Of a DNA stretch of 64,000 nucleotides, positions 4,075 through 46,746 are shown in pieces. Positions within the stretch are counted from its first letter, which is position 1; the number at the start of each line of letters is the position of its first letter. The notes under the pieces are model-generated. The model was not told where the DNA came from and did no database searches. It was given only the letters and a program-made list of their open reading frames with translations. This stretch comes from Pyruvatibacter sp. HU-CL02332 (GTDB taxonomy: Bacteria > Pseudomonadota > Alphaproteobacteria > CGMCC-115125). The position numbers and the translations under genes were made by a program. The stretch is from NCBI RefSeq assembly GCF_040362765.1, contig NZ_BAABWK010000002.1, forward strand, positions 992,001-1,056,000, written 5' to 3'.

Positions 4075-4166
4075 TTTTGATCTCCCAGGGCGGGTTTCTT
4101 GTTGGCGCCCGCTTTCGTTTATGCTTCCAGGCAATTGCGCCTCACCCAGCACCAGAAGGCAAGCCC

Positions 4167-5566: not shown

Positions 5567-5575
5567 CTTGCTTAT

Positions 5576-5603: not shown

Positions 5604-5619
5604 CATGATGGAGGAACCA

Positions 5620-6075
5620 ATGCCAGAGATACCCCTGAACTTTGCCCTGTCGCCGTACATTTCCGTCAAAGGTGCCAGCGATGCCATTGCCTTTTACACC
5701 GCGGCTTTTGGCGCGGAAGAACAGTTTCGACTGGAAGAACCCGACGGTGGGCGGATCGGCCATTCGGAAATACGGATTGGTGGGAACACCATCATGATTG
5801 CCGACGAATACCCGGATTTTGGCGCCCTTAGCCCGGACTCACTGGGCGGCTCGCCTGTGAAACTGCACCTCTATGTGGAGGATGTGGACAAGGTGTTTGC
5901 AACCGCCCTTGATGCTGGCGCCACAGAGCTGCGCGCTCTGAAGGATGAGTTTTACGGCGACAGAACCGGAACAATCATGGATCCGTTTGGGCATACCTGG
6001 ATGCTTGCCAGCAAGAGAGAGGAAGTGAGCCCCGAAGAAATGCAGAAACGTTGGCAGCAGATGATGGGCGGCTGA
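5620..6075 (+). CDS. VOC (glyoxalase/PhnB-like) family protein
   Basis: This is a 151-residue protein of the vicinal-oxygen-chelate fold, PhnB-like branch. It opens with SPYISVKGASDAIAFYTAAF and ends with the usual MDPFGHTWMLASKREEVSPE block. PhnB-like VOC proteins are small dimers, and the biochemical role of most is unknown. The ATG at 5620 follows GGAGGA at 5610-5615; the ATG at 5605 would precede that site. It is divergent from and probably controlled by the adjacent TetR regulator. A PLP-dependent decarboxylase starts 64 bp downstream and may be cotranscribed. Confidence 0.85.
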   Translation: MPEIPLNFALSPYISVKGASDAIAFYTAAFGAEEQFRLEEPDGGRIGHSEIRIGGNTIMIADEYPDFGALSPDSLGGSPVKLHLYVEDVDKVFATALDAGATELRALKDEFYGDRTGTIMDPFGHTWMLASKREEVSPEEMQKRWQQMMGG

Positions 6076-6139
6076 GGCCAAACAGGTTAGGCTTCTGGCG
6101 AAATACGTACAGCCAAAGAAACCTGCCGGAGAGAAACCC

Positions 6140-7390
6140 ATGCGCGTTGAAATGCCTTCAAACGGAACAGATTGGGACACGCTGTCCGCCCAGATGAACG
6201 AGATGGCCACCGGCGACGTGAAATGGCGCGACGGCAAGACGGCAGTCTATGTCTTCAATGCTGGTGAGGACGTCTCAAAGGTTCAAAAAGAGGCCTATAC
6301 GCGCTTCATGTCCGAGAACGGACTTGGGCCGATGGCTTTTCCAAGCCTCAAGCGTATGGAAGAAGAAATCATCCAGATGGGCCTGAGCCTTCTCCAGGCT
6401 CCGGAAGATGGCGCAGGGAACGTGACCTCAGGGGGCACTGACTCCATCACCATGGCCATCAAGACAGCACGTGACTATGCGCGCGCCACAGGCCGGCTTG
6501 CTGCTGGCAATCAACCCAACATTGTATTGCCATGGTCTGGCCACCCAGCCTTCGACAAGGCTGCTTTGATGATGGACATCGAGTTGCGGCGTATTCCGGT
6601 TACGGATGATTTTCTGGCTGACCCTCAGGCCATGTCAGATGCGGTTGATGCCGACACCATCATGATGGTGGGATCTGCTCCCTGCTTTCCATATGGACTG
6701 ATTGATCCGATTGCCGAGTTGGGCACAGTCGCTGAAGCCCACAATGTGTGGCTCCATGTGGATGCGTGCGTCGGTGGGTTCTTTGCGCCGTTTGCCCGCA
6801 TGAATGGTGCTGACCTTCCTGCCTTTGATTTTGCGGTACCACAGGTTCATTCCATATCGGCTGACCTGCACAAATATGGCTACTGCGCCAAAGGTGCATC
6901 GACCGTCATGTTCCGGTCGGAGGACCTCAGAGAGCACATGATCTTCGACACCAATGACTGGCCCGGCGGGCGCATGATAACTCCAACGCTTGCAGGTACA
7001 CGACCAGGTGGCGCCATTGCGGCCGCATGGGCTGTGATGAACTACCTTGGCGTTGATGGCTATCGCGCCAAACAGGGCCTTGTCGTGGAGACCCGCGAAA
7101 AGATTGAGGCCGGTGCCCGCGATCTTGGGTTTGAAATCATCGGGAAACCGCAACTGGGCCTTGTTGGGTACACACATCCAGAGCGGGATATGTTCGCCAT
7201 CTGGGGCAAGCTGTTTGAGCGTGGCTGGTTCACATCCATCGTGACGAAACCACACGGCATCCACCTGATGCTTTCGCCCAAACATGCTGAAGTGGCCGAC
7301 ACCTATCTGGCAGATCTAGCATGGGCGACAGAGCAGGTACGCGGCGCAAATGGGCCAAAAGATCAAAAAGAGATCCGCTATGGCGGCTGA
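6140..7390 (+). CDS. PLP-dependent decarboxylase, sphingosine-1-phosphate-lyase-like
   Basis: This 416-residue fold-type I PLP enzyme belongs to the group II decarboxylase/sphingosine-phosphate lyase superfamily. Visible motifs are TSGGTDSITMAIKTAR (phosphate-cup region), HVDACVGGF with the ring-stacking/Asp contact, and SADLHKYGYCAKGAST, whose Lys forms the Schiff base with PLP. The HKYG-x-x-x-KG pattern is that of S1P lyase rather than glutamate decarboxylase. The substrate could be a phosphorylated long-chain base or another amino alcohol phosphate. No membrane anchor is present, unlike the eukaryotic enzyme. It is 64 bp downstream of the VOC gene on the same strand. Family placement is firm; the substrate is inferred. 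Confidence 0.82.
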   Translation: MRVEMPSNGTDWDTLSAQMNEMATGDVKWRDGKTAVYVFNAGEDVSKVQKEAYTRFMSENGLGPMAFPSLKRMEEEIIQMGLSLLQAPEDGAGNVTSGGTDSITMAIKTARDYARATGRLAAGNQPNIVLPWSGHPAFDKAALMMDIELRRIPVTDDFLADPQAMSDAVDADTIMMVGSAPCFPYGLIDPIAELGTVAEAHNVWLHVDACVGGFFAPFARMNGADLPAFDFAVPQVHSISADLHKYGYCAKGASTVMFRSEDLREHMIFDTNDWPGGRMITPTLAGTRPGGAIAAAWAVMNYLGVDGYRAKQGLVVETREKIEAGARDLGFEIIGKPQLGLVGYTHPERDMFAIWGKLFERGWFTSIVTKPHGIHLMLSPKHAEVADTYLADLAWATEQVRGANGPKDQKEIRYGG

Positions 7391-7785
7391 CCTTTGGTCA
7401 GATATGCTGCGACGCACAATTTCCGTTAACCCTGCTATGCGTTGAGGTATGGCTGGTGCCCCTATTTGGCAATCAACCCACCACCCCTCTTCATAACATA
7501 CTGATTTTAATGGAATAATTGCCGTTATGAACATTTTTCATATTGTTCACTGTTTCACAAAGTCGTCGCACTTGCGGTATTGCCGTTTGAGAAGATTGGG
7601 CCCATCTTCCTCTCAGGCAAACAAATGATGCGGCGCACAACGGCTTAAAAAGCCACGTGTGGATTTGGTGGCCAATAAAAACGAGCTGTTCAAAACAGCC
7701 AATAAATCCGGCCATACCGGATTGGAAACGCGACCTGAAGGCATTGTAAGCGGCTGGGCATGTGTATTCCGGAAGGAATAGTCTC
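7391..7785 (+). other. 395-bp gene-free region with inverted repeat and three hairpins
   Basis: This gap separates the decarboxylase from the 64-residue membrane protein. It holds an AT-rich stretch with the inverted repeat TGAACA-N10-TGTTCA (7528-7549). Three short stem-loops follow: GGCTT-aaa-AAGCC (7642-7654), GCTGTT-caa-AACAGC (7685-7699, sharing one base) and AATCCGG-ccata-CCGGATT (7705-7723). GCCAATAAA occurs twice, at 7671 and 7698. I see no credible protein gene on either strand. It may be a promoter with a structured 5' leader, but no known riboswitch class was recognised. Confidence 0.45.
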
Positions 7786-7980
7786 ATGAGTGCGAATACA
7801 AATATGGCCTCCTCTTCCCTCAATGCAGCATCGGCCAGCGCTAATTCAGGGTCGGCCTTCGAACGTACGGTACGTAAGGTCAAGAACATCAAAGCTGGCG
7901 ACCTGTTCATCAATGGTTTGTGGGCGGCATTTGCCATCTATGGTCTCGTTGCAACGACCAACGTCTTCCTGACCTACTAG
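7786..7980 (+). CDS. small single-pass membrane protein, function unknown
   Basis: This is a 64-residue protein. The first 22 residues are almost all Ser, Ala and Asn, followed by a basic amphipathic patch (FERTVRKVKNIKAGD). One membrane segment covers about residues 41-62 (INGLWAAFAIYGLVATTNVF). The ATG at 7786 follows a strong GGAAGGA by 8 bases. A very stable terminator begins 59 bases after the stop, so the gene forms a complete small transcription unit with an unusually long leader. Good translation signals and its own terminator argue that it is real. It has no recognisable family and no obvious partner among its neighbours. Confidence 0.7.
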   Translation: MSANTNMASSSLNAASASANSGSAFERTVRKVKNIKAGDLFINGLWAAFAIYGLVATTNVFLTY

Positions 7981-8038
7981 GTCGAAAGACGCGATCAACT
8001 AAAGTCGGGTGGCAGATTGCGTCACCGCAGAAACAAGA

Positions 8039-8079
8039 ACGGCCCGGCACGCCTTAGACAGGCGTAACCGGGCCGTTTT
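8039..8079 (+). terminator. strong intrinsic terminator
   Basis: ACGGCCCGG (8039-8047) pairs with CCGGGCCGT (8068-8076), with an inner CGCC/GGCG pairing, followed by a short T run. It ends the small membrane protein transcript. On the other strand it could also stop the GST transcript, which ends at 8115. Confidence 0.85.
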
Positions 8080-8114
8080 CAGTTCAGCATCTCTATCAGG
8101 TCTCAATTCGCCTA

Positions 8115-8726
8115 TTAGGCGGTTGCTGATGGGCGCGCCGCAACCCGGTCATACCAGGCTTTGACGTTTGGGCAGCTGTCGGGAATGGGCTGTCCTACTG
8201 ACGCACCAAACTCCAGGAAGGCGTACAGCAAGCAATCCGCGATGGTGAAGGTATCGCCAGTCAACCAGGTTTTGCCGTCGAGCTGGCCGTTGAACCATTC
8301 CTGTCCGTTGGCTGCCATGGCTTTCAAACCATCTGCCATTTCCGGGCGACAGAGAAGACGAGACTCAAACATCGCGAGACCTTCCGCAAAACGGAAGCCG
8401 TTGGCCAACGGTTCGCAGACATACAGGTCGGCTCGACGCATCCACATGCGTGTCTCCGCACGCGCCTGCGGTGTTGTACCAACCAGGTCTGACGACCCGT
8501 TCACGTCGTCGAGATACTCACAGATCGCTGTGATCTCAGCGAGATAAGATCCATCATCAAGTTCGAGGCAAGGCAACTGACCACGTGGATTGCGCGTTGA
8601 GTAGTCGCCCTGACGGTTCTCACCCGCCATAATATCCACTTCCTCAAGAGGAACGCTAAGGCCGCGCTCGGCAAGGTACATACGCACCATTTTCGGATTT
8701 GGGCCGATGGAGTTGTAGAGTTTCAT
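8115..8726 (-). CDS. glutathione S-transferase family protein
   Basis: This 203-residue cytosolic GST has an N-terminal thioredoxin-fold domain (residues 1-80: MKLYNSIGPNPKMVRMYLAE, then NPRGQLPCLEL with the cis-Pro and LAEITAICEYLDD in place of the usual ES-x-x-I-x-x-YL). A helical C-terminal domain follows with the TLADC-like cap TGDTFTIADCLLYAF. Glutathione conjugation or isomerisation of an unknown substrate is expected. The ATG at 8726 has AGGAAA upstream. An in-frame upstream start at 8798 would add 24 residues not typical of the family. It faces a shared terminator at its 3' end. Confidence 0.88.
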   Translation of the reverse strand: MKLYNSIGPNPKMVRMYLAERGLSVPLEEVDIMAGENRQGDYSTRNPRGQLPCLELDDGSYLAEITAICEYLDDVNGSSDLVGTTPQARAETRMWMRRADLYVCEPLANGFRFAEGLAMFESRLLCRPEMADGLKAMAANGQEWFNGQLDGKTWLTGDTFTIADCLLYAFLEFGASVGQPIPDSCPNVKAWYDRVAARPSATA

Positions 8727-8911
8727 GTGAGCGTTTCCTATGGAGTTTTCAGGCTGATTTTTATTTTGACGCACGCACCATAGTGTTTCTGACGCCATTC
8801 ATCCACACAGCCATCTCTCGCCTATGCAACGCTTGCGTTTGATGGAGCGGCTTGCCATTTAGGAAGTATCCACGGTCGTCTGACTGTGGCGATTGACCTT
8901 CGGGGGCGACA

Positions 8912-9295
8912 TTGCGATCTGTCATACGCGCACTCATGATCACGCTTGGATGGCTGCTGCTTATTCCGGGCCTAGTCTTTGTAGTCCTCCCTCCTCCCTT
9001 TGCGTTTGGCATCTTCATGGTGCTGCCGGGCATCGCCATTCTTGTTGCTTACTCCAAGGGTATGCGCAGACTCATACAAGCCATTCGCGCACGTTTCAGG
9101 CCTGTGGACGGCGCGCTGAAAGCAATTGAGACGCGCGTGCCCGACCTCCTCGGCCGCAGTTTAAAGCGCACGAACCCATCAGCCATTGGACGTGCCTTAC
9201 GCCAGAAAGGGCGACAGAAACGGCGGCATAAACTAGGGCACTCTGATAAAGTGATCTCAAATCCATCTGAAACGGACACACCTCCGCATGGCTGA
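8912..9295 (+). CDS. PGPGW-type two-helix membrane protein
   Basis: This 127-residue protein has two adjacent membrane segments (about residues 9-29 and 32-50). They are separated by the Pro/Gly-rich turn VLPPPFAFGIFMVLPGIAIL, typical of the PGPGW transmembrane family, followed by a basic cytoplasmic tail rich in Arg and Lys. A TTG start at 8912 is used because GGGGGCGA lies just upstream; the first in-frame ATG (8936) has no ribosome site and would shorten the first helix lead-in. The end overlaps the next gene by 8 bases, so the two are almost certainly translated together. Function is unknown. Confidence 0.7.
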   Translation: MRSVIRALMITLGWLLLIPGLVFVVLPPPFAFGIFMVLPGIAILVAYSKGMRRLIQAIRARFRPVDGALKAIETRVPDLLGRSLKRTNPSAIGRALRQKGRQKRRHKLGHSDKVISNPSETDTPPHG

Positions 9296-10196
9296 TCTAC
9301 CACTCAACAGACAGTTCGACCCTCAATATGGCAAGATGATCGAGGTAACGCCTCTGGTCCGTCGTGTTGTTGCGCCCAATGAAAGCGCGTTCACCTTCAA
9401 AGGCACCGGTACATATGTGATCGGTCGCGGCAATGTTGCCGTGATCGACCCAGGTCCACTTGACCATGGTCATGTGCAGGCCATTCTTGATGGGCTTGAG
9501 GGGGAAACGATTACCCACATTCTCATTACCCACACACACAATGACCATTCACCGGCTGCGGCTCCCCTGAAGGAAAAGACCGGCGCACCCACTTATGGTT
9601 TTGGCCCTCATGGAATGGGCGCCGGAGCGGGTGTTGCTGAAGGCGCACGCATGGATGAAGGCGGCGACATGGCCTTTACGCCTGACCATGTCATCAAGGA
9701 CGGCGATGTAATTGAGGGTGACGGCTGGACCGCCGAATGCGTGTTCACGCCCGGTCATACCTCCAACCATATGTGCTTTGGCCTGCGCGAGGAAAAGGCA
9801 CTGTTTACAGGCGACCACGTGATGGGCTGGTCAACGGCTGTGATCGCACCGCCTGACGGTGACATGGCGCAGTACATGGCCAGCCTGCGCAAACTGCTTG
9901 AACGGGACGACGAGGTCTATTACCCGACGCATGGAGCGCCGGTGACAAAGCCGCATTCACTTGTGCGCGGTTACATTACGCACCGCAAAGCGCGCGAGGC
10001 CCAAATTCTCAATCGGCTTCAAGCTGGTGACCGCACGATTACAGACATGGTGCCTGTCATGTATGCGGAAACGGACAAGCGCCTTCACCCTGCGGCAGCT
10101 CGGTCCGTTTTTGCCCACATGAAGCAGATGGCAGAAGAAGGCCGGGTCCACACAAACGGTGTCCCGGCCATCAATGGTGAGTACTGGTTGGACTAG
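9288..10196 (+). CDS. metallo-beta-lactamase-fold hydrolase (LACTB2-like)
   Basis: This 302-residue protein has the zinc-binding HTHNDH motif (ITHTHNDHSPAAAPL), a second His in FTPGHTSNHMCF, an Asp in LFTGDHVMGWS, and a final His in YPTHGAPV, so the dinuclear site is complete. A winged-helix-like C-terminal region (ITDMVPVMYAETDKRLHPAA, residues ~245-300) matches the extra domain of LACTB2-type hydrolases. Those act on RNA or on thioesters; the substrate here is unknown. The ATG overlaps the end of the membrane protein gene by 8 bases (translational coupling). It converges with the DUF1499 gene, 9 bp away. Confidence 0.85.
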   Translation: MADLPLNRQFDPQYGKMIEVTPLVRRVVAPNESAFTFKGTGTYVIGRGNVAVIDPGPLDHGHVQAILDGLEGETITHILITHTHNDHSPAAAPLKEKTGAPTYGFGPHGMGAGAGVAEGARMDEGGDMAFTPDHVIKDGDVIEGDGWTAECVFTPGHTSNHMCFGLREEKALFTGDHVMGWSTAVIAPPDGDMAQYMASLRKLLERDDEVYYPTHGAPVTKPHSLVRGYITHRKAREAQILNRLQAGDRTITDMVPVMYAETDKRLHPAAARSVFAHMKQMAEEGRVHTNGVPAINGEYWLD

Positions 10197-10205
10197 GTCT
10201 TCTGG

Positions 10206-10964
10206 TTACGACCCAAGCTTGCCCTGCAATGCCTGCATGTACGCATCGATGCGGGCAGCATTTTTGCCAAGGTCCGAAATGCCGATGCGGCTGACTGACC
10301 GCATATCAACCAGTGTGCGCTCGGGACCGTCGTCGGCAATGCGGATGACGATGTCGTCCTTGAAGCCAAACAGCAACGTGGTGTCGGTCGCTTCTATGCG
10401 ACCGGGTTCGCCATTCTCGGGCTCGTCGGCATCAGCAACGTCCCAGCCTTGCGCATTTGCTACATCGAGCGCAGCTTCAAACACGGTGGCAATGTCGTCA
10501 GCCACTACGAGCGTCTGAAGTTGCGGGTACGCTTCGCGCTGGAGATCAGCGAGATTTGCCGGATTGGCGCGGTCCAATGGATTGCTGTCGTCGCCACGCA
10601 AAGCCACGGCAGAAACAAACTCAGGCGGGTTTTCAAGGTCAGTCGTGATGTCGTGAATTTGCGGTGCAGAACCGTTGGTCAGGGCATTGCTGATTGGAAA
10701 TGCGAGGATGGCGACACCAAGAACGGCAGCCAAGGCCGCCTGTCCCATTCCCGGCTTGCCCATCAGGCCGCGGATGATACCGATCAGGCCCAGAACCACG
10801 CCAACCGCTACAATCAGAAGACCGCCGGCAGCGCCAAAGAACCCCAATCGGCCATCCACTATCCCCAGGCGACCAATCAGCATTGCAAGAACTGAAACCA
10901 CTACACCGGCTATGACCAGTCGTACAGCAAGGCTCGCAAGCCGCGAACGTGTGTTGTCACTCAT
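10206..10964 (-). CDS. DUF1499 family membrane protein
   Basis: This is a 252-residue protein. Three membrane segments lie in the first 110 residues (about 13-33, 40-64 and 75-95), followed by a soluble DUF1499 domain (about 105-250). Family hallmarks visible are LENPPEFV near the domain start, AYPQLQTLVV, FGFKDDIVIRI and DMRSVSRIGISDLGKNAARI. DUF1499 is common in alphaproteobacteria and has no proven function. The 105 bp upstream contains short inverted repeats but no convincing promoter. The acyl-CoA ligase gene ends upstream on the same strand. Confidence 0.85.
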   Translation of the reverse strand: MSDNTRSRLASLAVRLVIAGVVVSVLAMLIGRLGIVDGRLGFFGAAGGLLIVAVGVVLGLIGIIRGLMGKPGMGQAALAAVLGVAILAFPISNALTNGSAPQIHDITTDLENPPEFVSAVALRGDDSNPLDRANPANLADLQREAYPQLQTLVVADDIATVFEAALDVANAQGWDVADADEPENGEPGRIEATDTTLLFGFKDDIVIRIADDGPERTLVDMRSVSRIGISDLGKNAARIDAYMQALQGKLGS

Positions 10965-11069
10965 TATCCACGTATCAGGACCTAACGTCCTGCCCCCTTC
11001 GCGCTGCCCCAGCGCTTGTTGTCGGCGTGTTCCGGCCCAGCCTAAATGCTGAGCCGGCGAGAGGCGTAG

Positions 11070-12722
11070 CTACTCAGCTGCGCCCTTTTTGAGATCGGAT
11101 GTTGGTAGCACGTAGTCCTTGAAGGTCTTGCGCAGTGCCAGCTTCTGGATCTTGCCTGTGGCGGTGTGCGGGATTTCATCCACGAAGGCCACGTCATCCG
11201 GCATCCACCACTTGGCAATCTTGCCTTCCATGTAGCCGAGAATGTCTTCCTTGGTCGGCGATTTTCCTTCGGCAGGAATGATGATCAGCAATGGACGTTC
11301 GTCCCACTTGGGATGAACCACACCAATCACAGCAGCTTCCTGTACGTCGGGGTGACCTACGGCAACATTCTCAAGTTCGATCGACGAAATCCATTCGCCG
11401 CCGGACTTGATAACGTCCTTGGCGCGATCCGTGATGTTCATGAAGCCTTCGGCATCGATGGTTGCGACGTCACCGGTGTCAAACCAGCCGTCCTCATCCA
11501 GAATGTTGCCGCCCTCACCCTTGAGGTATGAACCGGAGATAGCAGGACCGCGCACCATCAGGTGGCCAAATGCCACGCCATCACGGGGAAGCTCCTTGCC
11601 GTCGTCATCGGTGATTTTCATTTCCACCGAATAGATCGGACGTCCCTGCTTCACTTTGATGTCGATCTGCTTATCAAGCGGCAGATCTTCCATGCCAGCC
11701 TTCAGCGACCCAAGTGTGCCCATGGGCGACAGCTCGGTCATGCCCCAGGCATGGAACACCTGCACATCGAACTCTTTCTCAAACGCTTCAATCATGAAGC
11801 GCGGTGCGGCAGAGCCACCGATGACAACGCGATTAAGTGCAGGCAGTTTCTTGCCCTCAGCCTGCAGGTACTGCAGCAGCATCAGCCAGACGGTTGGTAC
11901 AGCAGCGGTGATGCTGACCTTTTCGGTATCGAGCAACTCAAAGATGCTCTCGCCATCCATGTTAGCGCCAGGCATCACCAGCTTGGCACCGGAAGCTGGA
12001 GCAGCGAATGCAATGCCCCAGGCATTGGCGTGGAACATGGGCACCACAGGCAGTACATTGTCGACTGAACGCATGCCGATGGCATCGGGATTGTTCACGG
12101 CCATGGAGTGCAGCACATTCGAGCGATGTGAATAGAGAACGCCCTTCGGGTTCCCCGTTGTGCCGGACGTATAGCAAAGTCCGCATGCGTCGTTTTCATC
12201 AACCTGTGCCCAGGTGAAGTCATCTGAGTTGGCGTTGATCAGAGTTTCATAGCAATGCGCATTCTTGAGCTTGGTCTCAGGCATCTTGTCTTCATCACAC
12301 ATGATGATGACGTGCTCGAGCTTCGGAAGTTGATCTTCGATGCCTTCGATGATCGGCACGAAAGTCAGATCGACGAAAATGATCCGGTCTTCGGCATGGT
12401 TGGCAATGTAAACCAACTGCTCCGGGAACAGGCGTGGGTTAAGTGTATGGCAAACGGCGCCCATGCCCATGATGCCGTACCAGGCTTCAAGGTGGCGGTC
12501 CGTGTTCCATGCCATGGTGGCAATCACGTCGCCCTGCTTCATACCAAGGCCGGTCAGCGCATTTGCAATCTTCTTGGACCGCGAATGCACCTGCTTGTAG
12601 GTCGAGCGACGGATCGGACCTTCAACAGACCGCGTCACAATTTCCCGGTCGCCGTGATACAGCGCTGCGTGATCAATGATTGAGTGGACCAGAAGCGGCC
12701 AGTCCTGCATCAAACCCTTCAT
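11070..12722 (-). CDS. AMP-forming fatty acyl-CoA ligase (AlkK-like)
   Basis: This 550-residue adenylate-forming enzyme activates medium/long-chain fatty acids to acyl-CoA. The nucleotide-binding loop is [18 protein letters not shown]. Adenylate contacts are [10 protein letters not shown] and [11 protein letters not shown], the hinge is in [17 protein letters not shown], and the C-terminal catalytic Lys lies in [17 protein letters not shown]. The overall pattern (no TM anchor, ~550 aa, MFHANAWG) matches the AlkK/medium-chain ligase group. It is monocistronic, with 227 bp separating it from the divergent amidase gene. Together with the crotonases and acyl-CoA dehydrogenase in this window it fits a fatty-acid-degrading lifestyle. 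Confidence 0.92.
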
Positions 12723-12949
12723 GGGGTAGTCTCCCTGTTTTCCGGCCTCGCGTGGCTATGCCCGCGCGCCTTAATTGATTGCATGGTCTTTTTGAGTGCC
12801 GCATGGTGGCGGCCCGACATTTGGCCGTACTTTAGGCGAGGCGGGCCTGAGGCTCAACGCGGCAATCACCTTGGATTGCACAAAATAGCTAAGGGCTTTG
12901 CACAAAGTTCAGCGGCAAAAACATATATGAATCAAGAGGAAGACCGCCG

Positions 12950-14410
12950 ATGAGCGATATTACCTTCGCGCCGGCCCATGTTCTGGCCGCCATGATCAGA
13001 CGACGCGAGATTTCATCGGTAGAGCTGCTGGATCATCTCATCAGCCGCTACAACACCCACAACCCGGCTCTCAACGCGATAGTTGCCACGGATTTCGAGC
13101 GGGCACTGGCGCAGGCCGAAGAGGCGGACCACGCCCTCTCACGTGGTGACATCTGGGGCCCGTATCATGGCGTGCCGATGACCATTAAAGATGCGCTGGA
13201 AACAGAGGGGCTGGTTACCACTGGGGGTGCCACGGATTTTGCCTCTCATATTCCAGATCGGGATGCTGACGCTGTTGCTCGCATCAAGGCCGCGGGCGCA
13301 ATTGTCTTTGGCAAAACCAACGTGCCGTTCTTCTCTGGTGATCTGCAGAGCTACAACGAGGTGTACGGAACGACCAACAACCCCTGGGATGTGACGCGCG
13401 GCCCAGGGGGGTCATCCGGCGGCGCTGCGGCGGCACTGGCTGCCGGCCTGACACCCCTTGAAATCGGCTCAGACATCGGTGGGTCAATCCGCACGCCATC
13501 GCATCTGTGCGGTGTCTTTGGTCACAAGCCGAGTTTCAACCTCGTGTCAAAACGTGGCCATGTGCCCGGCGTGCCTGGCGCACTCTTCACCGGTGACCTT
13601 TCTGTTGTTGGCCCAATGGGACGCTCGGCGCGCGATCTTGAGATTGCTCTTTCGATGATCATGGGCCCGGATGATTTTGACAGCGTTGGCATGGCACCAG
13701 CTCTCCCGGAGCCACGTGCGCGAGACCCACGCGAACTTACCATCTCCACCTGGTTTGATGATCCCTACTGCCCGGTTGAATCCGAGAACGTCAAAATCAT
13801 GGAGCGCGCCGCTGACGCTCTTGAGCAGGCCGGTGCAACAATCCATCGCGATGCCCGCCCGGATCTCTCCTTTGGCGAGGCCTTTGAAGTCTATGCGACG
13901 CTGCTGAACGGAGGGACTACCCGAGGCTTCCCGCCGCGTGTTCTTGAACGCCTACGCGAAACAGCCAAGACGCTGGACCCTGACGACAAATCCCATCAGG
14001 CCATGCAGGCGCGTGGGGCCACACTCAGCTATCATGAATGGCTGGTGTGGAAAGAAGTCCAGGCGCAGATGCGCGCCAAGTGGGCTCGCTTCTTTGAAAC
14101 CTATGATGCCGTACTCATGGCTGTCGCGCCGGTTTCAGCCTTCCCGCATGATCAACAATCCAATTTTCACAACCGCACACTGACAGTGAATGGGCAGGAC
14201 CGCCCCTATCTTGATCTTGTGAGCTGGTCAGGGTTGCCGCTTGTTTCCTATCTTCCAGGAACCGCGGTTCCGGTTGGCCGGACAGACGCTGGGTTGCCCG
14301 TTGGCATTCAGGTCGTTGGTCCCTATCTGGAAGACTTCACCACAATTGCCATCGGCAGCATGCTTGAGCGCGAGCTTGGCGGGTTTGTGGCACCGCCCAA
14401 CTTTGCCTGA
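12950..14410 (+). CDS. amidase signature family hydrolase
   Basis: This 486-residue amidase carries the Ser-cisSer-Lys triad: Lys in MTIKDALETEG, cis-Ser in GGSSGGAAAAL, and nucleophile Ser in DIGGSIRTPSHLCGVFG. It hydrolyses an amide or possibly an ester. The stand-alone gene lacks gatB/gatC neighbours, so it is not the tRNA-dependent amidotransferase subunit. The ATG at 12950 follows AAGAGGAAGA within 20 bases. The next gene (DUF6614) starts 41 bp downstream and is probably cotranscribed. The substrate is unknown. Confidence 0.9.
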   Translation: MSDITFAPAHVLAAMIRRREISSVELLDHLISRYNTHNPALNAIVATDFERALAQAEEADHALSRGDIWGPYHGVPMTIKDALETEGLVTTGGATDFASHIPDRDADAVARIKAAGAIVFGKTNVPFFSGDLQSYNEVYGTTNNPWDVTRGPGGSSGGAAAALAAGLTPLEIGSDIGGSIRTPSHLCGVFGHKPSFNLVSKRGHVPGVPGALFTGDLSVVGPMGRSARDLEIALSMIMGPDDFDSVGMAPALPEPRARDPRELTISTWFDDPYCPVESENVKIMERAADALEQAGATIHRDARPDLSFGEAFEVYATLLNGGTTRGFPPRVLERLRETAKTLDPDDKSHQAMQARGATLSYHEWLVWKEVQAQMRAKWARFFETYDAVLMAVAPVSAFPHDQQSNFHNRTLTVNGQDRPYLDLVSWSGLPLVSYLPGTAVPVGRTDAGLPVGIQVVGPYLEDFTTIAIGSMLERELGGFVAPPNFA

Positions 14411-14451
14411 TTGCCAGCATCGTGGCCGGAACGTTTTGGAGAGTATGAGAC

Positions 14452-14802
14452 GTGGATATCTATCACGGATTTTTTAACCTCACCGATGGTCAATCCGACA
14501 TAGAATTTGCGGACGACCTTGCAGGCTTCATGTCTTATCTCAAAGCCGAAGGCAGGATTGAGGGCTGGCGGCTGATGCGCCGTAAACTCGGCCTCGGCCC
14601 CAAAGAGATGGGTGAGTTCCATTTGATGATTGAGGTTACGGGCCTTGCTCAACTGGATGACGCCTTCACCCATGTATCCGGCCGTGCGGGCGACGTCGAA
14701 GGAAAGCATGCAGCAGTCAATCAGAAGATCGCTGGCATTACATTTGCGCTCTATCGCGATTTTCCCGACCAACACCGCACGCGCGGTGAAGAGAAGTTTT
14801 AG
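14452..14802 (+). CDS. DUF6614 family small protein
   Basis: This 116-residue soluble protein begins MDIYHGFFNLTDG and contains GWRLMRRKLGLGP and EFHLMIEVTGLAQLDDAF, which I associate with the DUF6614 family found in alphaproteobacteria. The pattern suggests a dimeric alpha-beta barrel-like fold. The GTG start at 14452 follows GGAGAG by 8 bases, and no in-frame ATG gives the conserved N terminus. It is likely cotranscribed with the amidase and lies 3 bp from the stop of the convergent SDR. Function is unknown. Confidence 0.7.
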   Translation: MDIYHGFFNLTDGQSDIEFADDLAGFMSYLKAEGRIEGWRLMRRKLGLGPKEMGEFHLMIEVTGLAQLDDAFTHVSGRAGDVEGKHAAVNQKIAGITFALYRDFPDQHRTRGEEKF

Positions 14803-14805
14803 GAT

Positions 14806-15618
14806 CTAGGCGTCCGCGGGAAATCCTGCCCACAAGGCTGAAACTGTCTCATCAAACTTTCCGCGTGTGCTCGCGTCTGGCACCACGCAATGAGGCTCGT
14901 TGGCCTCAATGGAGGCAATTGCACGAGCTGCCACATGCTCGACGGTCATTCCTTCATCCCGCCAGTAAGCCCCCGCTTCTTCGGGCTGATGGCGGGCACC
15001 ACCGAAGCGCTCAGGGCGCGAGCGTGCCGCATCCCATATCCGCGTGTTCACAAGTCCTGGATAGATCGTTGTCACGCCAATGCCCTTGGGCTCCAGTTCT
15101 GCCCGCACTCCCTCGGCAAGACCGGCCATGGCCTTCTTGCTGCCACCATAGGCGGCAAGGCCTTCATCCAGTGGGGCAAGGCATGCTGACGACGCAGTGA
15201 AGGCTACATGGCGCGGACCCTCGGTTTCAATCATGGCAGGCGCAAATGCGCGGGCGGTGTTGATTGGTCCGAGCACATTCACATTTAGCAGCCAGTCGAC
15301 CGCACGTTCGGACGCGCCAACATAGCCGCCGCCAATGCCCACGCCAGCATTGATGATAAGGAGTGCGACAGCCCCAAGATCATCCTCAATCTTTTGAGCA
15401 GCATCGGAGAGGCTTTTGCGGTCCGTCACGTCAGCTGCCACAGCCAACGATTTGACGCCTAGACCCTGAACGGCATCAGCCGTTGCCTGGGCCTTCTCCT
15501 CCAGAACATCAAGCACGGCAACATTGACGCCTGCCCGACCAAGCTCCAGCGCGAAGGCCGCACCGATACCATCTGCGCCCCCGGTGATGACGGCGGTCAG
15601 CCCTTTGAAACGCGACAT
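14806..15618 (-). CDS. short-chain dehydrogenase/reductase (SDR)
   Basis: This 270-residue classical SDR has the nucleotide-binding TGGADGIGAAF motif near the start, an acidic residue after beta-2 (VLDVLEE) favouring NAD(H), NAG in IINAGVGIG, catalytic Ser in FTASSACLAPLD, and YGGSKKA with the Tyr-x3-Lys pair. The specific alcohol or ketone substrate cannot be deduced. The ATG at 15618 follows AGGAGA; a start 7 codons earlier lies upstream of that site. It is divergent from the class III aminotransferase, 131 bp apart. Confidence 0.88.
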   Translation of the reverse strand: MSRFKGLTAVITGGADGIGAAFALELGRAGVNVAVLDVLEEKAQATADAVQGLGVKSLAVAADVTDRKSLSDAAQKIEDDLGAVALLIINAGVGIGGGYVGASERAVDWLLNVNVLGPINTARAFAPAMIETEGPRHVAFTASSACLAPLDEGLAAYGGSKKAMAGLAEGVRAELEPKGIGVTTIYPGLVNTRIWDAARSRPERFGGARHQPEEAGAYWRDEGMTVEHVAARAIASIEANEPHCVVPDASTRGKFDETVSALWAGFPADA

Positions 15619-40800: not shown

Positions 40801-41397
40801 TTAGTTGATCGGTACGTTGCGGTTGGCATAGGCCAGTTCACACTGGGCATAAAGCTCGCTGCCAACAGCATAGCCTTCACCCTCATAGCAATGCTGCATG
40901 GCCTCCCAGAAGTGCCCCGGTCGAGCAAACTCTTTCAACTTCTGGTCGTGCGGCAGGCCGTCCCAGTATTCCTGCACTTCCTCACGCAGGTCTTCGTCGA
41001 CACATACAAGCCGCCCGAATTCATCTGTTCGACCGCGTGCTTCACACTCCGCTGACGGCCCTCGGAAAGTACCGTCCGCATTCCACTGGCTGGCATTTTG
41101 CTGCCAGCTCTCGGTGCGCATGGCGACACATTTGTCGCTTTGAGCCGTGCCAGCGCGAAAGCCCAGAAAATCGCAATAGATAACGGCTCGCCATTCTTCA
41201 AATGGCGCATCATGAAGTGAGCTCTTAAAATAGCTGGGCATATCCCGCCACCATCGCTCAAAGCGCTCCTTCTCCACGTCGTTCATGGTGGTCATGAACG
41301 CGCGTAGCTCTGGTGTGTAATCGGCTGCGCTTGCAGAAGGCGTGGCAAACGCCATCATTGCTGCCAGAAGAGATAGAAAACCAAAACGCAATCGCAT
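40801..41397 (-). CDS. secreted protein with FERWW/WNADG domain (long paralog)
   Basis: This 198-residue protein has a signal peptide (residues 1-24, cleavage near SASA). The first 120 mature residues contain ERFERWWRDMP, WRAVIYCDFLGFRAG, QWNADGTFRGPSAECEARGR and FGRLVC, four blocks that recur in the next gene. A further 65-residue region with a Cys pair (MQHCYEGEGY, YAQCELAYAN) has no counterpart there. The even number of Cys and the export signal suggest a disulfide-stabilised periplasmic protein. The ATG follows GGGAGGAA. It lies 46 bp after its paralog on the same strand and is probably cotranscribed with it. Confidence 0.72.
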   Translation of the reverse strand: MRLRFGFLSLLAAMMAFATPSASAADYTPELRAFMTTMNDVEKERFERWWRDMPSYFKSSLHDAPFEEWRAVIYCDFLGFRAGTAQSDKCVAMRTESWQQNASQWNADGTFRGPSAECEARGRTDEFGRLVCVDEDLREEVQEYWDGLPHDQKLKEFARPGHFWEAMQHCYEGEGYAVGSELYAQCELAYANRNVPIN

Positions 41398-41443: not shown

Positions 41444-41845
41444 CTAGCCGCAAATCAGGCGGCCCCATTTGTCGGTCTTGTTGCGGGCAAGACATTCTTC
41501 TGACGGGCCCTTGTAGGATCCATCAGCGTTCCATTGGTCCGATGTGGCCATACGTTCCTTGTATTTGGTCTCGCGGCATTCAGCGCCTTCTGCGGAACCA
41601 ATACGAAAGCCAAGTACGTCACACACAACCGTGGGCCTCCATTTGCCCAGTGGTTGGCTGGATAGTTCGGACTTCATGGATGCTGGTGCCTGTGACCACC
41701 ACCGCTCAAACCTCTCTTCCGTCATGCCCAATTCGGTGGCGATGTCAGAAAGGGGATGAGGGTAACTTTGAGCATTTGACGGTGTCGAAACCGCACCAAC
41801 CAGCAGTACTGACGCCAAAAAAGCGGCTGTAAACAGATTACGCAT
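41444..41845 (-). CDS. secreted protein with FERWW/WNADG domain (short paralog)
   Basis: This 133-residue protein has a signal peptide (cleavage near SNAQ). The mature part is just the shared domain: ERFERWWSQAP, WRPTVVCDVLGFRIG, QWNADGSYKGPSEECLARNK and WGRLICG at the very C terminus. It aligns end to end with the N-terminal part of the downstream gene product, so the two are tandem paralogs. GGGAGGAA gives the ATG at 41845. Two palindromic operators (41876-41938) and a -10/-35 pair lie directly upstream. No known family was recognised. Confidence 0.75.
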   Translation of the reverse strand: MRNLFTAAFLASVLLVGAVSTPSNAQSYPHPLSDIATELGMTEERFERWWSQAPASMKSELSSQPLGKWRPTVVCDVLGFRIGSAEGAECRETKYKERMATSDQWNADGSYKGPSEECLARNKTDKWGRLICG

Positions 41846-41859
41846 ACTTCCTCCCTTTA

Positions 41860-41873
41860 GGGCGTGCACGCCC
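41860..41873. repeat. perfect 14-bp palindrome in the 5' leader
   Basis: GGGCGTGCACGCCC reads the same on both strands. It falls between the predicted transcription start (near 41879) and the ribosome site of the short paralog gene, so it could be an operator or, in RNA, a self-complementary element. Confidence 0.45.
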
Positions 41874-41875
41874 AC

Positions 41876-42351: not shown

Positions 42352-42428
42352 GGCAGACCTCATTTAATTGTCTGAGATGAGCGTATCAGGCTTTGGCAGA
42401 CCTTCACGCTGAGGCATAATCGCTTGTG

Positions 42429-42821
42429 ATGACAATTGTTGCACCAAGACGGTTTTTGCAATGCGTGTTGATCGCCCTGTCATTAATGACAGTGGCGGTT
42501 GCTAATCCTGCGCGGGCGAATCCGATACTGGAAGATGGCCTGTCGCGTCTGGCGGGAACTCTTGGGGCTGTTCACTATCTGCGTACACTTTGCCGACCCA
42601 GCGAGGGTCAACAATGGCGCAACAAGATGCTGGATATTCTGTCATCGAATGACATTGATCAGTCATCACGCAACGCCCTTATTGGCGCGTTCAATGCCGG
42701 CTACTCGCGACAGCAGTCAGCGCACAGCCGGTGCACTGCAGCAGCAGCAAATCTTGGAAACACTTATGCCCGCCAAGGGGCGCAGCAGGCGCGCCAGCTG
42801 GCAGGTCGGCTGGGCGGTTAA
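42429..42821 (+). CDS. TIGR02301 family exported protein
   Basis: This 130-residue protein has an N-terminal signal peptide (about 1-29, ending NPARAN). The mature domain pattern is LSRLAGTLGAVHYLRTLC, WRNKMLDIL, RNALIGAFNAGYSRQQ and HSRCTAA, which I recognise as TIGR02301, an alphaproteobacterial family of unknown function with two conserved Cys. The ATG at 42429 is used; a GTG three bases earlier is also in frame. It converges on the GspE-like gene with 2 bp between stops. Confidence 0.75.
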   Translation: MTIVAPRRFLQCVLIALSLMTVAVANPARANPILEDGLSRLAGTLGAVHYLRTLCRPSEGQQWRNKMLDILSSNDIDQSSRNALIGAFNAGYSRQQSAHSRCTAAAANLGNTYARQGAQQARQLAGRLGG

Positions 42822-42823
42822 GT

Positions 42824-44902
42824 CTAAAGACGTGCGGCCAGATCCACCGCCCGAGCAAGCTCACCCGGGCTGACTTCACCGTGCAGTACTTTGCGCACAC
42901 CATCATCAGCCAATGACTGGAAACCTTTGTCGGCGGCCGTTGTGCGAAGATCGGCAATGCTTGCACCTTCGGCAATCAGGTCATTCATTTCATCATCAAT
43001 GATCAGAACTTCCGAAATCACCGTCCGCCCGCGGTAGCCGGTCGAGCGGCACGACGGGCACCCGTTGGGATGGTAGACGGTGGGTCGATCAGTTGGATCA
43101 AGCCCAAAGATAAAGCACTCATCTGCACTGGCGGTGCGTGATTGTTTGCACACGGAGCAAAGGCGGCGAACAAGGCGCTGCGCCATGACTGTCGTTATCC
43201 GTCCTGCTAGGTGACGCGGGTCATCGACCATACCGATGAGCTCGATCAACGCTGACAGGGAATCCGGAGCGTCCATGGATGTCAGAACCAGGCGCCCTGC
43301 CGATGCAGCATTTGCCAAAGACCGCGCAGCGGCTTTGCCGTCGATCTTATCGAACAACAAAACATCAGGATCCTGTGCAACAACATCCTCAATCAGTGTC
43401 TGCGGATTGTTTGCCTGCTGGGTGGTAACTTCAAGCTGGCTGACCAATGGCAGGCGATAGCCGATGCGGCGCTCCACGGTGAAAATGGAGCGCTCTGCCG
43501 CTTTCATTTCACCCAGCATGCCGTAGAGGCTGGTTGTGCGACCAGACGCGCGGCCACCAGCGACAACCACCATGCCCGATGGCCGAACCAGTGAGCGCAA
43601 CACCAAAGCAGATGAATGGTCTGACAGTCCGATTTCACCAAGGGACATCGGGTCGCGCGCGATCTCGCCCATGCGGATCGTCATGCGTTCGCCATTCAAG
43701 GTGTCGAATGTCTTCAGCGAACAGACAAAAAAGCGATCACCGAGGCGCATGGTGAATTCGCCAGGCTCCGCACCCTCCTGACCCAATGCGCCATCCAGGC
43801 CTGCAAGATTGCGCATATGTGTCGCGATAGGCTGCCAGAAGCGCTTATCGATCGATGATGACTGCTGCATGGCACCGTCAACCCGGTAGCGAAGTCGGAC
43901 ATAGCCATCTACTGGCTCGAAGTGAGCATGACTGGCATCTGCCCGAATAGCATCAAGCAGGGCTGCATTGACGAGTCGGACGGCAGGATCAGCCCAAACA
44001 GTAGCATCCGCACCGCGTTCTTCGGTTCCGTGTGCGAGACCCTTGAGAATGCCCTCCGCAGACATTTCATGGTCGAGGACGGCCTCGATCGTTTCCTCCA
44101 AGGCGTCATTTGGCCAGAAGCATGGCTCGACACGCGTGCCTGCGGGAAGGTAGGGACGCAGGTCTTCGATGCGATCGATGTCTTTGGGGTGAGCAATCGC
44201 CACCATGATGGCGCCATTGCCACGGGACACCGGAAGTATCTGCGCTGAGCGGATCAGATCCTGCGGCGCAACCTGAATGGCTTCCGGGTCAATAAGGGTG
44301 TGCAGGGGATCATGGCCTGCGTTGTCAGATGCGTGTTCCTGCTCACCTTCAAACAGATCAAGATCAGACAGGATGCGGCCCAGCAGTTTGTGCGGGCTGC
44401 GTTCCTGTTCGGCAATGGCAGCATCAAGACCTGTACGGCTGACATAGCCCAGCTCTACCAAGCGCTCGCCAATGGGCCGCTGCATGTCACCAAGAGCAGC
44501 CTTTGAGCGAATCCTTGATGAGGCGTCCGCGATCTCCACCTGTTCGGCAATTTCGGGATCGGTGACCTTGATTGCCGGACTTGGCATTGCTGAGACGGCT
44601 TGTTCGGTAGATTGCCCATTGGCTGCTTCTGGCATTCCAGCCGCGCTGATGGGTGTGACACTAGCTGAAGGCGTTGCGCGTTTGGGTGGAGTAACGCCTG
44701 CAGAGCGGATCAGGCGCTCAATGCCACGATCCACGTCGTCGGGCGCGTCCAGTTCAACGAATTCCTCAGCAGCAACATCCACATCAATACCAAGGTCATG
44801 GATGTTCAACGAAGACGCATCGCGCGGCTTGGCCCGATCAGCAGGTGGCTGACCGCCTGTTTCAGAGTTACCGGTATTTTTCTTGTCGAAGGTCATGCTC
44901 AT
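42824..44902 (-). CDS. GspE/PilB-like protein with degenerate ATPase site
   Basis: This 692-residue protein is of the type II/IV secretion ATPase family. A disordered N terminus (about 1-115) is followed by a T2SSE/MshEN-type N-domain (about 125-290: IGERLVELGYVSRTGLDAAI, LIRSAQILPVSRGNG, MVAIAHPKDID). The C-terminal RecA-like domain carries the family scaffold and a zinc tetracysteine (CSVCK and CPSCRS). The key residues are altered. Walker A reads GGRASGRTT with Arg455 instead of Lys, and Walker B reads DVLLFDKIDG with Lys519 where the catalytic Glu (GEIRD) belongs. The His box STLHTN is TSMDAP. So it may not hydrolyse ATP. No other secretion genes are nearby. Start at 44902 or 44896 (both ATG) after GGGGGCG. 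Confidence 0.85.
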   Translation of the reverse strand: MSMTFDKKNTGNSETGGQPPADRAKPRDASSLNIHDLGIDVDVAAEEFVELDAPDDVDRGIERLIRSAGVTPPKRATPSASVTPISAAGMPEAANGQSTEQAVSAMPSPAIKVTDPEIAEQVEIADASSRIRSKAALGDMQRPIGERLVELGYVSRTGLDAAIAEQERSPHKLLGRILSDLDLFEGEQEHASDNAGHDPLHTLIDPEAIQVAPQDLIRSAQILPVSRGNGAIMVAIAHPKDIDRIEDLRPYLPAGTRVEPCFWPNDALEETIEAVLDHEMSAEGILKGLAHGTEERGADATVWADPAVRLVNAALLDAIRADASHAHFEPVDGYVRLRYRVDGAMQQSSSIDKRFWQPIATHMRNLAGLDGALGQEGAEPGEFTMRLGDRFFVCSLKTFDTLNGERMTIRMGEIARDPMSLGEIGLSDHSSALVLRSLVRPSGMVVVAGGRASGRTTSLYGMLGEMKAAERSIFTVERRIGYRLPLVSQLEVTTQQANNPQTLIEDVVAQDPDVLLFDKIDGKAAARSLANAASAGRLVLTSMDAPDSLSALIELIGMVDDPRHLAGRITTVMAQRLVRRLCSVCKQSRTASADECFIFGLDPTDRPTVYHPNGCPSCRSTGYRGRTVISEVLIIDDEMNDLIAEGASIADLRTTAADKGFQSLADDGVRKVLHGEVSPGELARAVDLAARL

Positions 44903-44992
44903 CGACGCCCCCAGAATCCTGCTGCAATTGCCGAGTTGTATATCCAACCGGCCACACAAACCTTGTGCCGGGCAGCAAGGCGCGTCTCAAAA

Positions 44993-45037
44993 CCGGCCTT
45001 TGCCCGGACCATTCATGCACGAATATGCAAAGGCCGG
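44993..45037. repeat. 45-bp inverted repeat upstream of the GspE-like gene
   Basis: CCGGCCTTTGC (44993-45003) is perfectly complementary to GCAAAGGCCGG (45027-45037) around a 23-base loop that itself contains ATTC-N6-GAAT. There is no T-tract. It lies within the roughly 300-bp gene-free stretch (44903-45201) upstream of the GspE-like gene and after the ThDP-enzyme gene, so it could end that transcript or bind a regulator. Apart from this repeat I see nothing in that stretch. Confidence 0.5.
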
Positions 45038-45201
45038 GCCGATCCCCATCAAGGCAAGCACGCACCAGGCTACCCCTGCCCGACCCGCAGATCGTAACAG
45101 CAAAGATGCTTTTTGCACCAGTTACTTAGCTGGTTAATCCGTATCCGGCTCAGATGACCGACCCAAACCAAGCATTTGCCCCGGAGTGGCTGGATTTGAC
45201 G

Positions 45202-46746
45202 CTAGATCATGGCCTCAATCAGGAATGGCCCTTTGCGGGACATTGAAGACTTGAAGGCGTCATTGAATTCCTCAGCGGTTTCACAGCGCACAGCTTCCAC
45301 GCCCATACCATTGGCGAGCTGGGTCCAGTTCAGTTCCGGATTATGAAGATCCAGCATGGACAGCGCCTTGGGGCCGGGATTTTCAGCTCCCACACGCATC
45401 AGTTCGATGTTGAGGATGGCGTATGAGCGGTTGGACAAAATGACAGTCACCACATCCAGCTTTTCACGTGCCATGGTCCAAAGTGCCTGCAGCGTGTACA
45501 TGGCGCCGCCGTCGCCATGGAAGCAGACTACTTTTTGATCCGGACAGGCAAGCGCCGCACCGGCAGCCAGCGGAAGTCCTTGACCGATGGCACCGCCAGT
45601 AAGGGTCATGTGGTCGTGCGGAGCTGCGGTCTCCGTATAGATGTTTGTAAAGAGGCCGGCTGTTGCTCCTTCGTCCGACACAACTGCGCCATCGGGAAGG
45701 AAATGAGCGATCGCTCGGCCTACCCCATCCGCATCAAGAGTACCGGACCCAAGGTCAGGCTTCGCGAGCGCAACATGCTCTGGTGCCTGCGCGGGTGCGC
45801 CAACGGCGTCTGCAAGAGCTTCAAGAGCTGCCAGGCTGTCCTCTTCCGGGCGCGCAAGAACAAGTGTTTCTGCGTCCGGTGGTGTCAGCCAGCTTTCCTT
45901 GCCGGGATAGGCGAAGAAGGCAACGGGGTTCTGTGAGCCACACAGGATCAGCTGTTCGACTTCAGCAATGTGCTCAACGGCCTGTTCTGCAAAATACGGA
46001 ATGCGTTCGATCTTCACGCGGCCTGCACCACGCTGCATGCGTGGTGTGAAGGTGTCACACAGAATACGCGCCCCTGTTGCTGCCTGAATGCGTCCGGCAA
46101 GTTCAAGGCCGTCTGCCAGCAGCGTGCGACCGCGCAACAGGATCGCAGATTTCTTTCCATTCTTGAGTGCAGCGGCGACCTTGTCGATCGTGCCACCATC
46201 GACTTCGCTGAACCCGGCAATCTCAACCGGGTCTGCTGCGCCGTCAGCATCAAGCCAGGCGGTATCAGCGGGAAGGATAAGAGTGGCAATGCCGCCCGGG
46301 GCGCTCATGGACGCAGCGTAAGCCCGCGCACCAGCAGCAGCCACTTCAGTGGCCTCCTCCGGCGTTTCCATCCAGACAGAGTTCGGGCGGGCCACACTGG
46401 CGATATCAGACGCCAGCGGCGCATCATATTGCCGGTGGTATGTCGCGTGCTCACCCACAACGTTGATGATTGGCGTTGCCGCGCGGCGGGCGTTGTGCAG
46501 ATTGGCAAAACCATTGCCGAGGCCGGCACCAAGATGGAGAAGAGTTGCTGCAGGTTTTCCGGCCATGCGGCCGTAGCCATCGGCGGCACCAGTCACAACG
46601 CCTTCAAACAGACCGAGCACCGGCCGGATGCCGTCTATCCGATCAAGAGCTGCCACGAAATGCATTTCGGATGTGCCAGGGTTCGAGAAGCAGACTTCCA
46701 CGCCGCAATTGACGAAAGTCTGCACAAGGCTCTCTGCACCATTCAT
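45202..46746 (-). CDS. ThDP-dependent acetolactate synthase/decarboxylase-like enzyme
   Basis: This 514-residue protein is of the thiamine-diphosphate family. The N-terminal PYR domain has the catalytic Glu in LGLFEGVVTGAADGYGRM. The PP domain has FHGDGGAMYTLQALWTMARE and ILSNRSYAIL, the GDG-x-N signature binding Mg-ThDP. A middle domain (about 190-330) lies between. It is shorter than IlvB (about 560-590) and there is no small regulatory subunit nearby, so branched-chain synthesis is unlikely; a benzoylformate or oxalyl/acyl decarboxylase-like role is possible. The upstream gene on the same strand is a LysE exporter, 57 bp away. Confidence 0.85.
   Translation of the reverse strand: MNGAESLVQTFVNCGVEVCFSNPGTSEMHFVAALDRIDGIRPVLGLFEGVVTGAADGYGRMAGKPAATLLHLGAGLGNGFANLHNARRAATPIINVVGEHATYHRQYDAPLASDIASVARPNSVWMETPEEATEVAAAGARAYAASMSAPGGIATLILPADTAWLDADGAADPVEIAGFSEVDGGTIDKVAAALKNGKKSAILLRGRTLLADGLELAGRIQAATGARILCDTFTPRMQRGAGRVKIERIPYFAEQAVEHIAEVEQLILCGSQNPVAFFAYPGKESWLTPPDAETLVLARPEEDSLAALEALADAVGAPAQAPEHVALAKPDLGSGTLDADGVGRAIAHFLPDGAVVSDEGATAGLFTNIYTETAAPHDHMTLTGGAIGQGLPLAAGAALACPDQKVVCFHGDGGAMYTLQALWTMAREKLDVVTVILSNRSYAILNIELMRVGAENPGPKALSMLDLHNPELNWTQLANGMGVEAVRCETAEEFNDAFKSSMSRKGPFLIEAMI

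Follow-up and report, generated by a model that had tools for sequence, protein, structure and literature searches.

The 64,000-nucleotide window analyzed here (Pyruvatibacter sp. HU-CL02332, contig NZ_BAABWK010000002.1, positions 992,001 to 1,056,000) contains an open reading frame of 692 amino acids (P0001; window positions 42824 to 44902, minus strand, ATG at 44902) for a PilB/GspE-type protein in which the key residue of each catalytic box has been lost. The sequence supports a pseudo-ATPase: the catalytic losses are fixed across the orthologs in four genomes, and strong purifying selection acts on the gene. A preliminary description of this DNA, made without database searches, had already suggested a pseudo-ATPase, and its open reading frame coordinates and residue numbers were correct. 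At a probability of roughly 0.6, we favor the reading that this is a neofunctionalized, selected motor derived from a type IV pilus, catalytically dead and acting as a scaffold or regulator.

Domains and catalytic residues of the 692-amino-acid protein

Translation, Pfam matches, and orthologs in four of four genomes examined from the order support the coding sequence as a catalytically dead member of the PilB/GspE family. Pfam placed the protein in the T2SSE family (PF00437; residues 305 to 682, E = 7.3e-61, 206.3 bits) and found an MshEN domain above its cutoff at residues 201 to 281 (E = 7.9e-8, 32.6 bits). The best matches among solved structures were PilB, with chain 6olj_C aligning to residues 143 to 684 (phmmer, E = 1.1e-56). 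Scores for the GspE model TIGR02533 and the PilB model TIGR02538 were nearly equal, at 261 and 256.8 bits, and fell below the NCBIfam equivalog cutoffs of 630.25 and 675.65, respectively; three intact relatives, at 482 to 501 bits, were likewise below, and thus the cutoff does not separate dead from intact proteins here. The N-terminal tail (residues 1 to 137, 44492 to 44902; this and all other features of the gene lie on the minus strand) was delimited by alignment, has no Pfam match within it, and is probably disordered. It contains a LNIHDLG...VDxGIERLIRSAG stretch that is conserved genus-wide in the ortholog alignment.

The catalytic sites were placed by hand from Geobacter PilB (PMC5424180) through the structure-match alignment, with 20 subtracted from the PilB chain numbering so that E357, E395, H413, and H420 land on the expected residues. 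In Walker A (GGRASGRTT, residues 449 to 457, 43532 to 43558), the lysine is replaced by R455, and the P-loop also carries the changes T451R and G452A. In the Asp box (TVERRIGY, residues 475 to 482, 43457 to 43480), the glutamate reported to coordinate Mg in Geobacter PilB (E357; PMC5424180) is G481, and D478 and P479 are both arginine. The catalytic glutamate of Walker B (DPDVLLFDKIDG, residues 511 to 522, 43337 to 43372), PilB E395, is K519, in LLFDKIDG, and both histidines of the His box (AGRLVLTSMDAPD, residues 535 to 547, 43262 to 43300) are replaced, H413 by R537 and H420 by D544, with PilB T411 becoming A535. The first arginine finger (PilB R271) corresponds to Ser395 (43718 to 43720), a position that reads S/S/A/A in the four orthologs. 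Retained are the second arginine finger (PilB R286) as R410, the residues G449, G454, T456, T457, and E477, and all four zinc cysteines in both half-sites (C582-x2-C585, 43148 to 43159; C615-x2-C618, 43049 to 43060). An alignment of 26 intact homologs has 91 conserved columns, of which the four orthologs retain 54 and depart from 37; the changed columns include the catalytic positions, and those kept include the zinc cysteines and R410.

The preliminary description had reported Arg455 in place of the Walker A lysine, Lys519 in place of the catalytic glutamate, loss of the His box, and retention of the zinc tetracysteine, and each of these observations was reproduced in all four orthologs. Three changes come in addition to that account: Gly481 with Arg478 and Arg479, Ser or Ala395, and Arg451 with Ala452. 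From this set of replacements we infer that ATPase activity has been lost.

Conservation and purifying selection

The gene was found in four of four genomes examined from its order in GTDB, which comprises a single genus, at 80, 86, 98, and 100% identity; one of the four genomes is 81% complete. The preliminary description had proposed checking orthologs for the same substitutions, and the losses proved common to all four genomes, with no close ortholog carrying intact Walker motifs among them. A sequencing or assembly error is ruled out, since four genomes at 80 to 100% identity share the losses. K455, E481, E519, R395, and H544 were intact in all of the 154 other alphaproteobacterial homologs examined. 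Position 535 was T or S in the same 154 and A in the four orthologs, while position 537 was looser, with histidine in 150, arginine in three, and serine in one. The 154 homologs comprised 126 from a sample of 385 genomes of the class and 28 from a sample of 262 genomes of one order. The 126 were made up of 26 loci and 100 regions among the class-search matches listed, leaving out the weakest listed rows and one row at a contig edge; the 28 were the best 30 matches of the order sample less two duplicates. The class search, with a threshold of E ≤ 1e-20, scored no more than three matches from any genome, a setting that highly divergent dead copies could escape. The two duplicates, second copies of genes from two genomes (L166 from G305 and L186 from G113), were excluded from the residue counts and from the 46-row tree described below, and one fragment (L041) was included in the counts and excluded from the 29-row tree. 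A search of plasmids returned 1,663 records with a match, all below 60% identity, the best-placed at 28.9%. One ortholog (L012) came from a metagenome-assembled genome of Candidatus Phaeomarinobacter, a group described from brown-alga cultures (PMC4110880); terms for pilus and secretion systems were not found in the available text of the genome paper of Candidatus Phaeomarinobacter ectocarpi (PMC4110880).

For the window genome and its closest species (G000 and G001), synonymous divergence (dS) over the whole gene was 0.42 and nonsynonymous divergence (dN) was 0.010, with a ratio (omega) of 0.025. The catalytic domain (residues 426 to 692) showed a single nonsynonymous difference against 68 synonymous ones, an omega of 0.004. 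In the other ortholog pairs, synonymous sites were near saturation, with proportions of synonymous differences (pS) of 0.71 to 0.74 over the whole gene; nonsynonymous proportions (pN) were 0.05 to 0.07 in the catalytic domain versus 0.24 to 0.31 in the N-terminal tail. Across the four orthologs, 340 of the 402 residues from 291 to 692 were invariant. The low omega together with the low pN of the catalytic domain rules out ordinary decay, and the dead motor is tightly preserved by strong purifying selection.

Kinship with type IV pilus-type extension ATPases

In a tree of 35 rows, the four dead rows fell inside a 25-row clade (support 100/100) together with all 12 ATPases whose gene neighborhoods were read; the chosen outgroup did not form one side of a branch in this tree. 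A quick search of 130 rows put the dead rows inside a 14-row subset of that clade (Shimodaira-Hasegawa-like approximate likelihood ratio test, 99) on a long stem with short tips, a grouping that an approximately unbiased test on the 35-row tree neither rejected nor demonstrated (P = 0.061). The 46-row tree left the placement among 43 rows open. The stem leading to the dead rows was long throughout, at 1.0 to 2.9 changes per site, and reached 10 changes per column in the 46-row tree. Taken together, the trees indicate kinship with type IV pilus-type extension ATPases at the level of the wider 25-row clade only.

Among the 12 neighborhoods of intact relatives, a PilC-type platform gene adjoined the ATPase gene in 11, and other genes recurred: a protein of about 540 amino acids in 10, an ATP-binding cassette (ABC)-type ATPase in 9, proteins of about 210 and 170 amino acids in 8 and 7, respectively, and a prepilin-like protein in 5. 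Both loci tested for PilT-family genes (L048 and L052) had one, scoring 476 and 470 bits against an NCBIfam cutoff of 319.1. Pfam, applied to ten proteins of locus L045, recognized T2SSF, two N-methylated prepilins, a secretin, and a T2SSE protein with MshEN, and gave no match for its proteins of about 540, 206, and 147 amino acids; the secretin had MshL, from the MSHA pilus, as its closest model (204.1 bits, cutoff 250.2). With this secretin and the PilT genes, the loci resemble those of a type IV pilus, perhaps one of the MSHA-like kind. A relic of a type II secretion system is rejected on the neighborhood evidence of PilC and, at two tested loci, PilT accompanying the intact relatives; the trees were built without rows tested as GspE.

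The L045 gene set (361 to 15432) has equivalents at L043, L044, L047, L048, L050, and L052, with PilB and PilC followed by the proteins of about 540, 206, and 147 amino acids and the ABC-type ATPase; L045 additionally has a tetratricopeptide repeat protein and an AAA protein. At the twelfth locus (L046, 9557 to 11344, genome G305), an intact pilus-type ATPase stands alone, and its contig carries PilC at a distance of about 84 kb, possibly an early step toward an orphan motor.

Absence of recognizable pilus partners and genomic context

The window genome (3.45 Mb in three contigs) encodes two T2SSE proteins, the 692-amino-acid protein and one of the TadA/CpaF type. The latter has intact motifs (GGTGSGKTT, CEDAAELQ, VGEVRG, and TLHANTP), and its best NCBIfam model was the TadA family, at 341.4 bits just below the cutoff of 373.15. 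The two T2SSF proteins and the single secretin are all encoded in the vicinity of the CpaF-type gene, at distances of up to about 6 kb, and no second secretin or GspF-size T2SSF was found in the window genome. In each of the four genus genomes, T2SSF occurred only as two proteins of about 336 amino acids, the size of Tad platform proteins, whereas a two-domain PilC of about 400 amino acids was present in all 10 tested genomes with an intact relative. No N-methylated prepilin was detected in the window genome at E ≤ 0.001, and an alignment search run without a positive control gave no match there to the pilus-operon protein of about 540 amino acids. Since the genus genomes show just two Tad-sized platform proteins each, the dead motor seems to live without its machine and to have outlived it. 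The preliminary description had placed the gene away from any secretion operon, and this agrees with our data: no pilus or secretion gene was seen in the window by eye, and the genome searches gave no other hit there. Its label of paralog is not quite apt, as the genome retains no further PilB or GspE.

Upstream of the gene are a thiamine pyrophosphate-dependent enzyme, a LysE-type translocator, and an AMP-binding enzyme, and downstream come a member of the glyoxalase family and two small proteins that Pfam does not recognize. The three fully read genus loci had the same gene order, and the short fourth contig matches its downstream part; this order points to no function. A promoter scan of positions 42400 to 45400 found no sigma-70-type site. 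Two adjacent small proteins on the minus strand of the window (40801 to 41397, 198 amino acids; 41444 to 41875, 143 amino acids) appear by eye to have signal peptide-like starts and share motifs such as RFERWW and WNADGxxxGPSxECxAR. They have no Pfam match, form one BLAST cluster, and were present in all four genus loci examined.

The MshEN region and cyclic di-GMP

The MshEN domain that binds cyclic di-GMP (c-di-GMP) is described as two 24-residue motifs with a spacer of about 5 residues (PMC5013675). In the 692-amino-acid protein, only motif I (residues 143 to 166, 44405 to 44476) fits the published relaxed motif, with proline at position 1. Motif II (residues 173 to 196, 44315 to 44386) is vestigial: LLG is kept, the Lx3Lx2Q helix is gone, and the stretch varies among the orthologs. 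The relaxed pattern found both motifs in 1 of 26 intact rows. With the NCBIfam c-di-GMP model NF053729, the protein scored 31.2 bits over 40 of 53 positions against a cutoff of 38, while all three intact relatives tested passed (52.3, 55.4, and 58.7 bits over 52 positions). The ancestor may therefore have bound c-di-GMP, and the second half-site may have been lost in this lineage. The MshEN likeness seen in the preliminary description stood, and its suggestion that the protein senses a nucleotide through this domain was weakened. A c-di-GMP receptor acting through MshEN would be in keeping with the Pfam match, the relaxed motif I, and the scores of the three relatives, but it is improbable given the degraded motif II and the score below the cutoff; the similar GSPII-A domain of Thermus PilF, with one good and one degenerate motif, is reported not to bind c-di-GMP (PMC11731258). 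On these comparisons, c-di-GMP sensing by the protein is unlikely.

Two other MshEN proteins are encoded in the window genome, both family 2 glycosyltransferases, with frames of 805 amino acids (L010, contig C1 of G000 near 1203000) and 717 amino acids (L057, same contig near 1988000). The first passes the c-di-GMP-motif cutoff with 76.7 bits and is a candidate c-di-GMP-controlled polysaccharide enzyme.

Discussion

In the history that we propose, the ancestor would have been the extension motor, of PilB/MshE type, that served a type IV pilus in Alphaproteobacteria. The lineage would have lost its pilus genes and retained the motor, a burst of change would then have stripped the key residues of ATP hydrolysis, and the sequence would subsequently have frozen. 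The protein most likely keeps a PilB-like fold, and its zinc sites together with what is left of the subunit interface would probably hold it in a hexameric ring that would serve as a nonhydrolyzing scaffold or regulator permanently near the nucleotide-free state of PilB. A Myxococcus xanthus PilB Walker A mutant, deficient in hydrolysis and assembly, is reported still to support exopolysaccharide production without a pilus, and in vitro work on the Thermus equivalents is described as pointing to the nucleotide-free form as the signaling state (PMC5544727; reviewed in PMC11656802). A motor unable to run the ATP cycle would stay nucleotide free permanently or answer another ligand. As to a partner or output, envelope polysaccharide and the Tad-type CpaF are guesses.

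Several points weigh against this reading. The searches identified no partner. The fold and ring of the dead motor rest on homology, an AlphaFold2 model built from two sequences having reached a mean predicted local distance difference test score of 35 and not being used. With the first arginine finger and further conserved positions lost (for example, R382, R509, and R554), the hexamer may fail to form, and the retained G449, G454, T456, T457, E477, and R410 could still allow nucleotide binding. In intact motors, too, the catalytic domain may be the part that varies least. The dead form is carried by only four genomes of one genus, and in a 29-row tree with a far outgroup the dead rows branched immediately outside the 22 intact sequences of pilus type (85/90).

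Among the alternatives, we consider it conceivable, though clearly less probable than the scaffold or regulator, that a basic pocket has replaced the former Mg-ATP site and takes up a phosphate-bearing ligand without Mg, the ring switching on binding; ADP, ATP, (p)ppGpp, another nucleotide, or a nucleic acid can be proposed as ligands with similar reserve. The alignment indicates that Mg-binding acids were exchanged for bases, chiefly in the Asp box, and the net charge of the 39 motif positions was +1 to +2 in the four orthologs versus a mean of -1.78 in the 154 other homologs (standard deviation 0.46, maximum 0). The rest of the domain was not more basic (-4 to -6 versus +0.81, standard deviation 3.72). 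T456, T457, G449, G454, and R410 are retained in the site, and a Thermus PilB Walker A mutant is reported still to bind MANT-ATP at 1.23 µM (PMC5544727). However, the pocket is deduced from motifs and not from a structure, Arg451 and Ala452 in the P-loop could fill the site, and the Walker B segment was not more basic (-2 to -3 versus -1.95); the exchange may reflect Mg-free anion binding or mere salt bridges. The preliminary description had also suggested regulation of another secretion ATPase; in this genome, where CpaF of the Tad type is the one further T2SSE protein found, the dead motor would then regulate CpaF or join it in a mixed ring, a reading that is more doubtful. In its favor, the genome encodes the CpaF-type protein with intact motifs, each of the four genus genomes has Tad-sized T2SSF proteins, and contacts among different motor ATPases have been reported from two-hybrid tests (PMC11656802), but the dead-motor gene lies on a different contig from the Tad cluster, and the CpaF-type gene has no MshEN match and fits TadA/VirB11 models far better than those for PilB.

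Two further alternatives carry very little weight. Acidic residues near the site (D518, D521 or E521, and D544) leave a slight chance that the protein is still an active ATPase with relocated catalytic residues, and arginine may sometimes stand in weakly for the P-loop lysine. Against this, the P-loop lysine, the Mg-binding glutamate, the catalytic glutamate, one arginine finger, and both histidines were lost together. It is just as hard to regard the gene as a fossil decaying after pilus loss. The machine is missing, the catalytic residues are gone, and the N-terminal tail is variable, but the frame is open in all four genomes at 80 to 98% identity, omega is lowest in the dead catalytic domain, and residues 291 to 692 are largely invariant. 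A pseudogene is rejected on the strong purifying selection (omega of 0.025).

According to a 2024 review, direct regulatory inputs of PilB are reported only in M. xanthus (PMC11656802), and the case for non-ATP jobs of pilus motor ATPases has so far rested largely on laboratory mutants. The marine genus described here keeps a motor predicted to burn no ATP, with no pilus found and strong selection on the dead domain. A deletion phenotype should reflect a nonmotor role, and the question is thus directly testable. Among the matches listed in a search of open-access titles and abstract openings, a scope outside which most subscription journals lie, there was no report of a pseudo-ATPase or degenerate motor in the PilB/GspE family.

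Compared with PilB/MshE-type extension ATPases, the protein has the same MshEN-N2D-CTD order, the tetracysteine zinc site, and the second arginine finger, and it is 29 to 37% identical to its 11 best intact relatives; it differs in that every catalytic box lacks its key residue and in that PilC, a prepilin, and a pilus-type secretin were not found in the window genome. With the MshE/MshEN receptors of c-di-GMP it shares the MshEN match and motif I, while the second half-site is missing. GspE of type II secretion belongs to the same superfamily, but PilC genes accompany the intact relatives of our protein, as do, at both loci tested, genes for PilT, a pilus-retraction family. The likeness to M. 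xanthus PilB is that a nonhydrolyzing PilB is reported to act on a nonpilus output, apparently in a nucleotide-free form (PMC5544727); the difference is that the M. xanthus form is a laboratory mutant with a pilus present in the species, whereas the form described here is natural and no pilus was found. More tentatively, a motor ring may have outlived its pilus and been rebuilt for signaling, its basic Mg-free pocket reading a ligand or the ring being locked in the nucleotide-free state, and such a ring could, with equal caution, be taken as the natural, genus-wide counterpart of the Myxococcus mutant whose dead PilB turns on exopolysaccharide. Of the systems compared, the dead motor appears most like the signaling, nucleotide-free PilB of Myxococcus.

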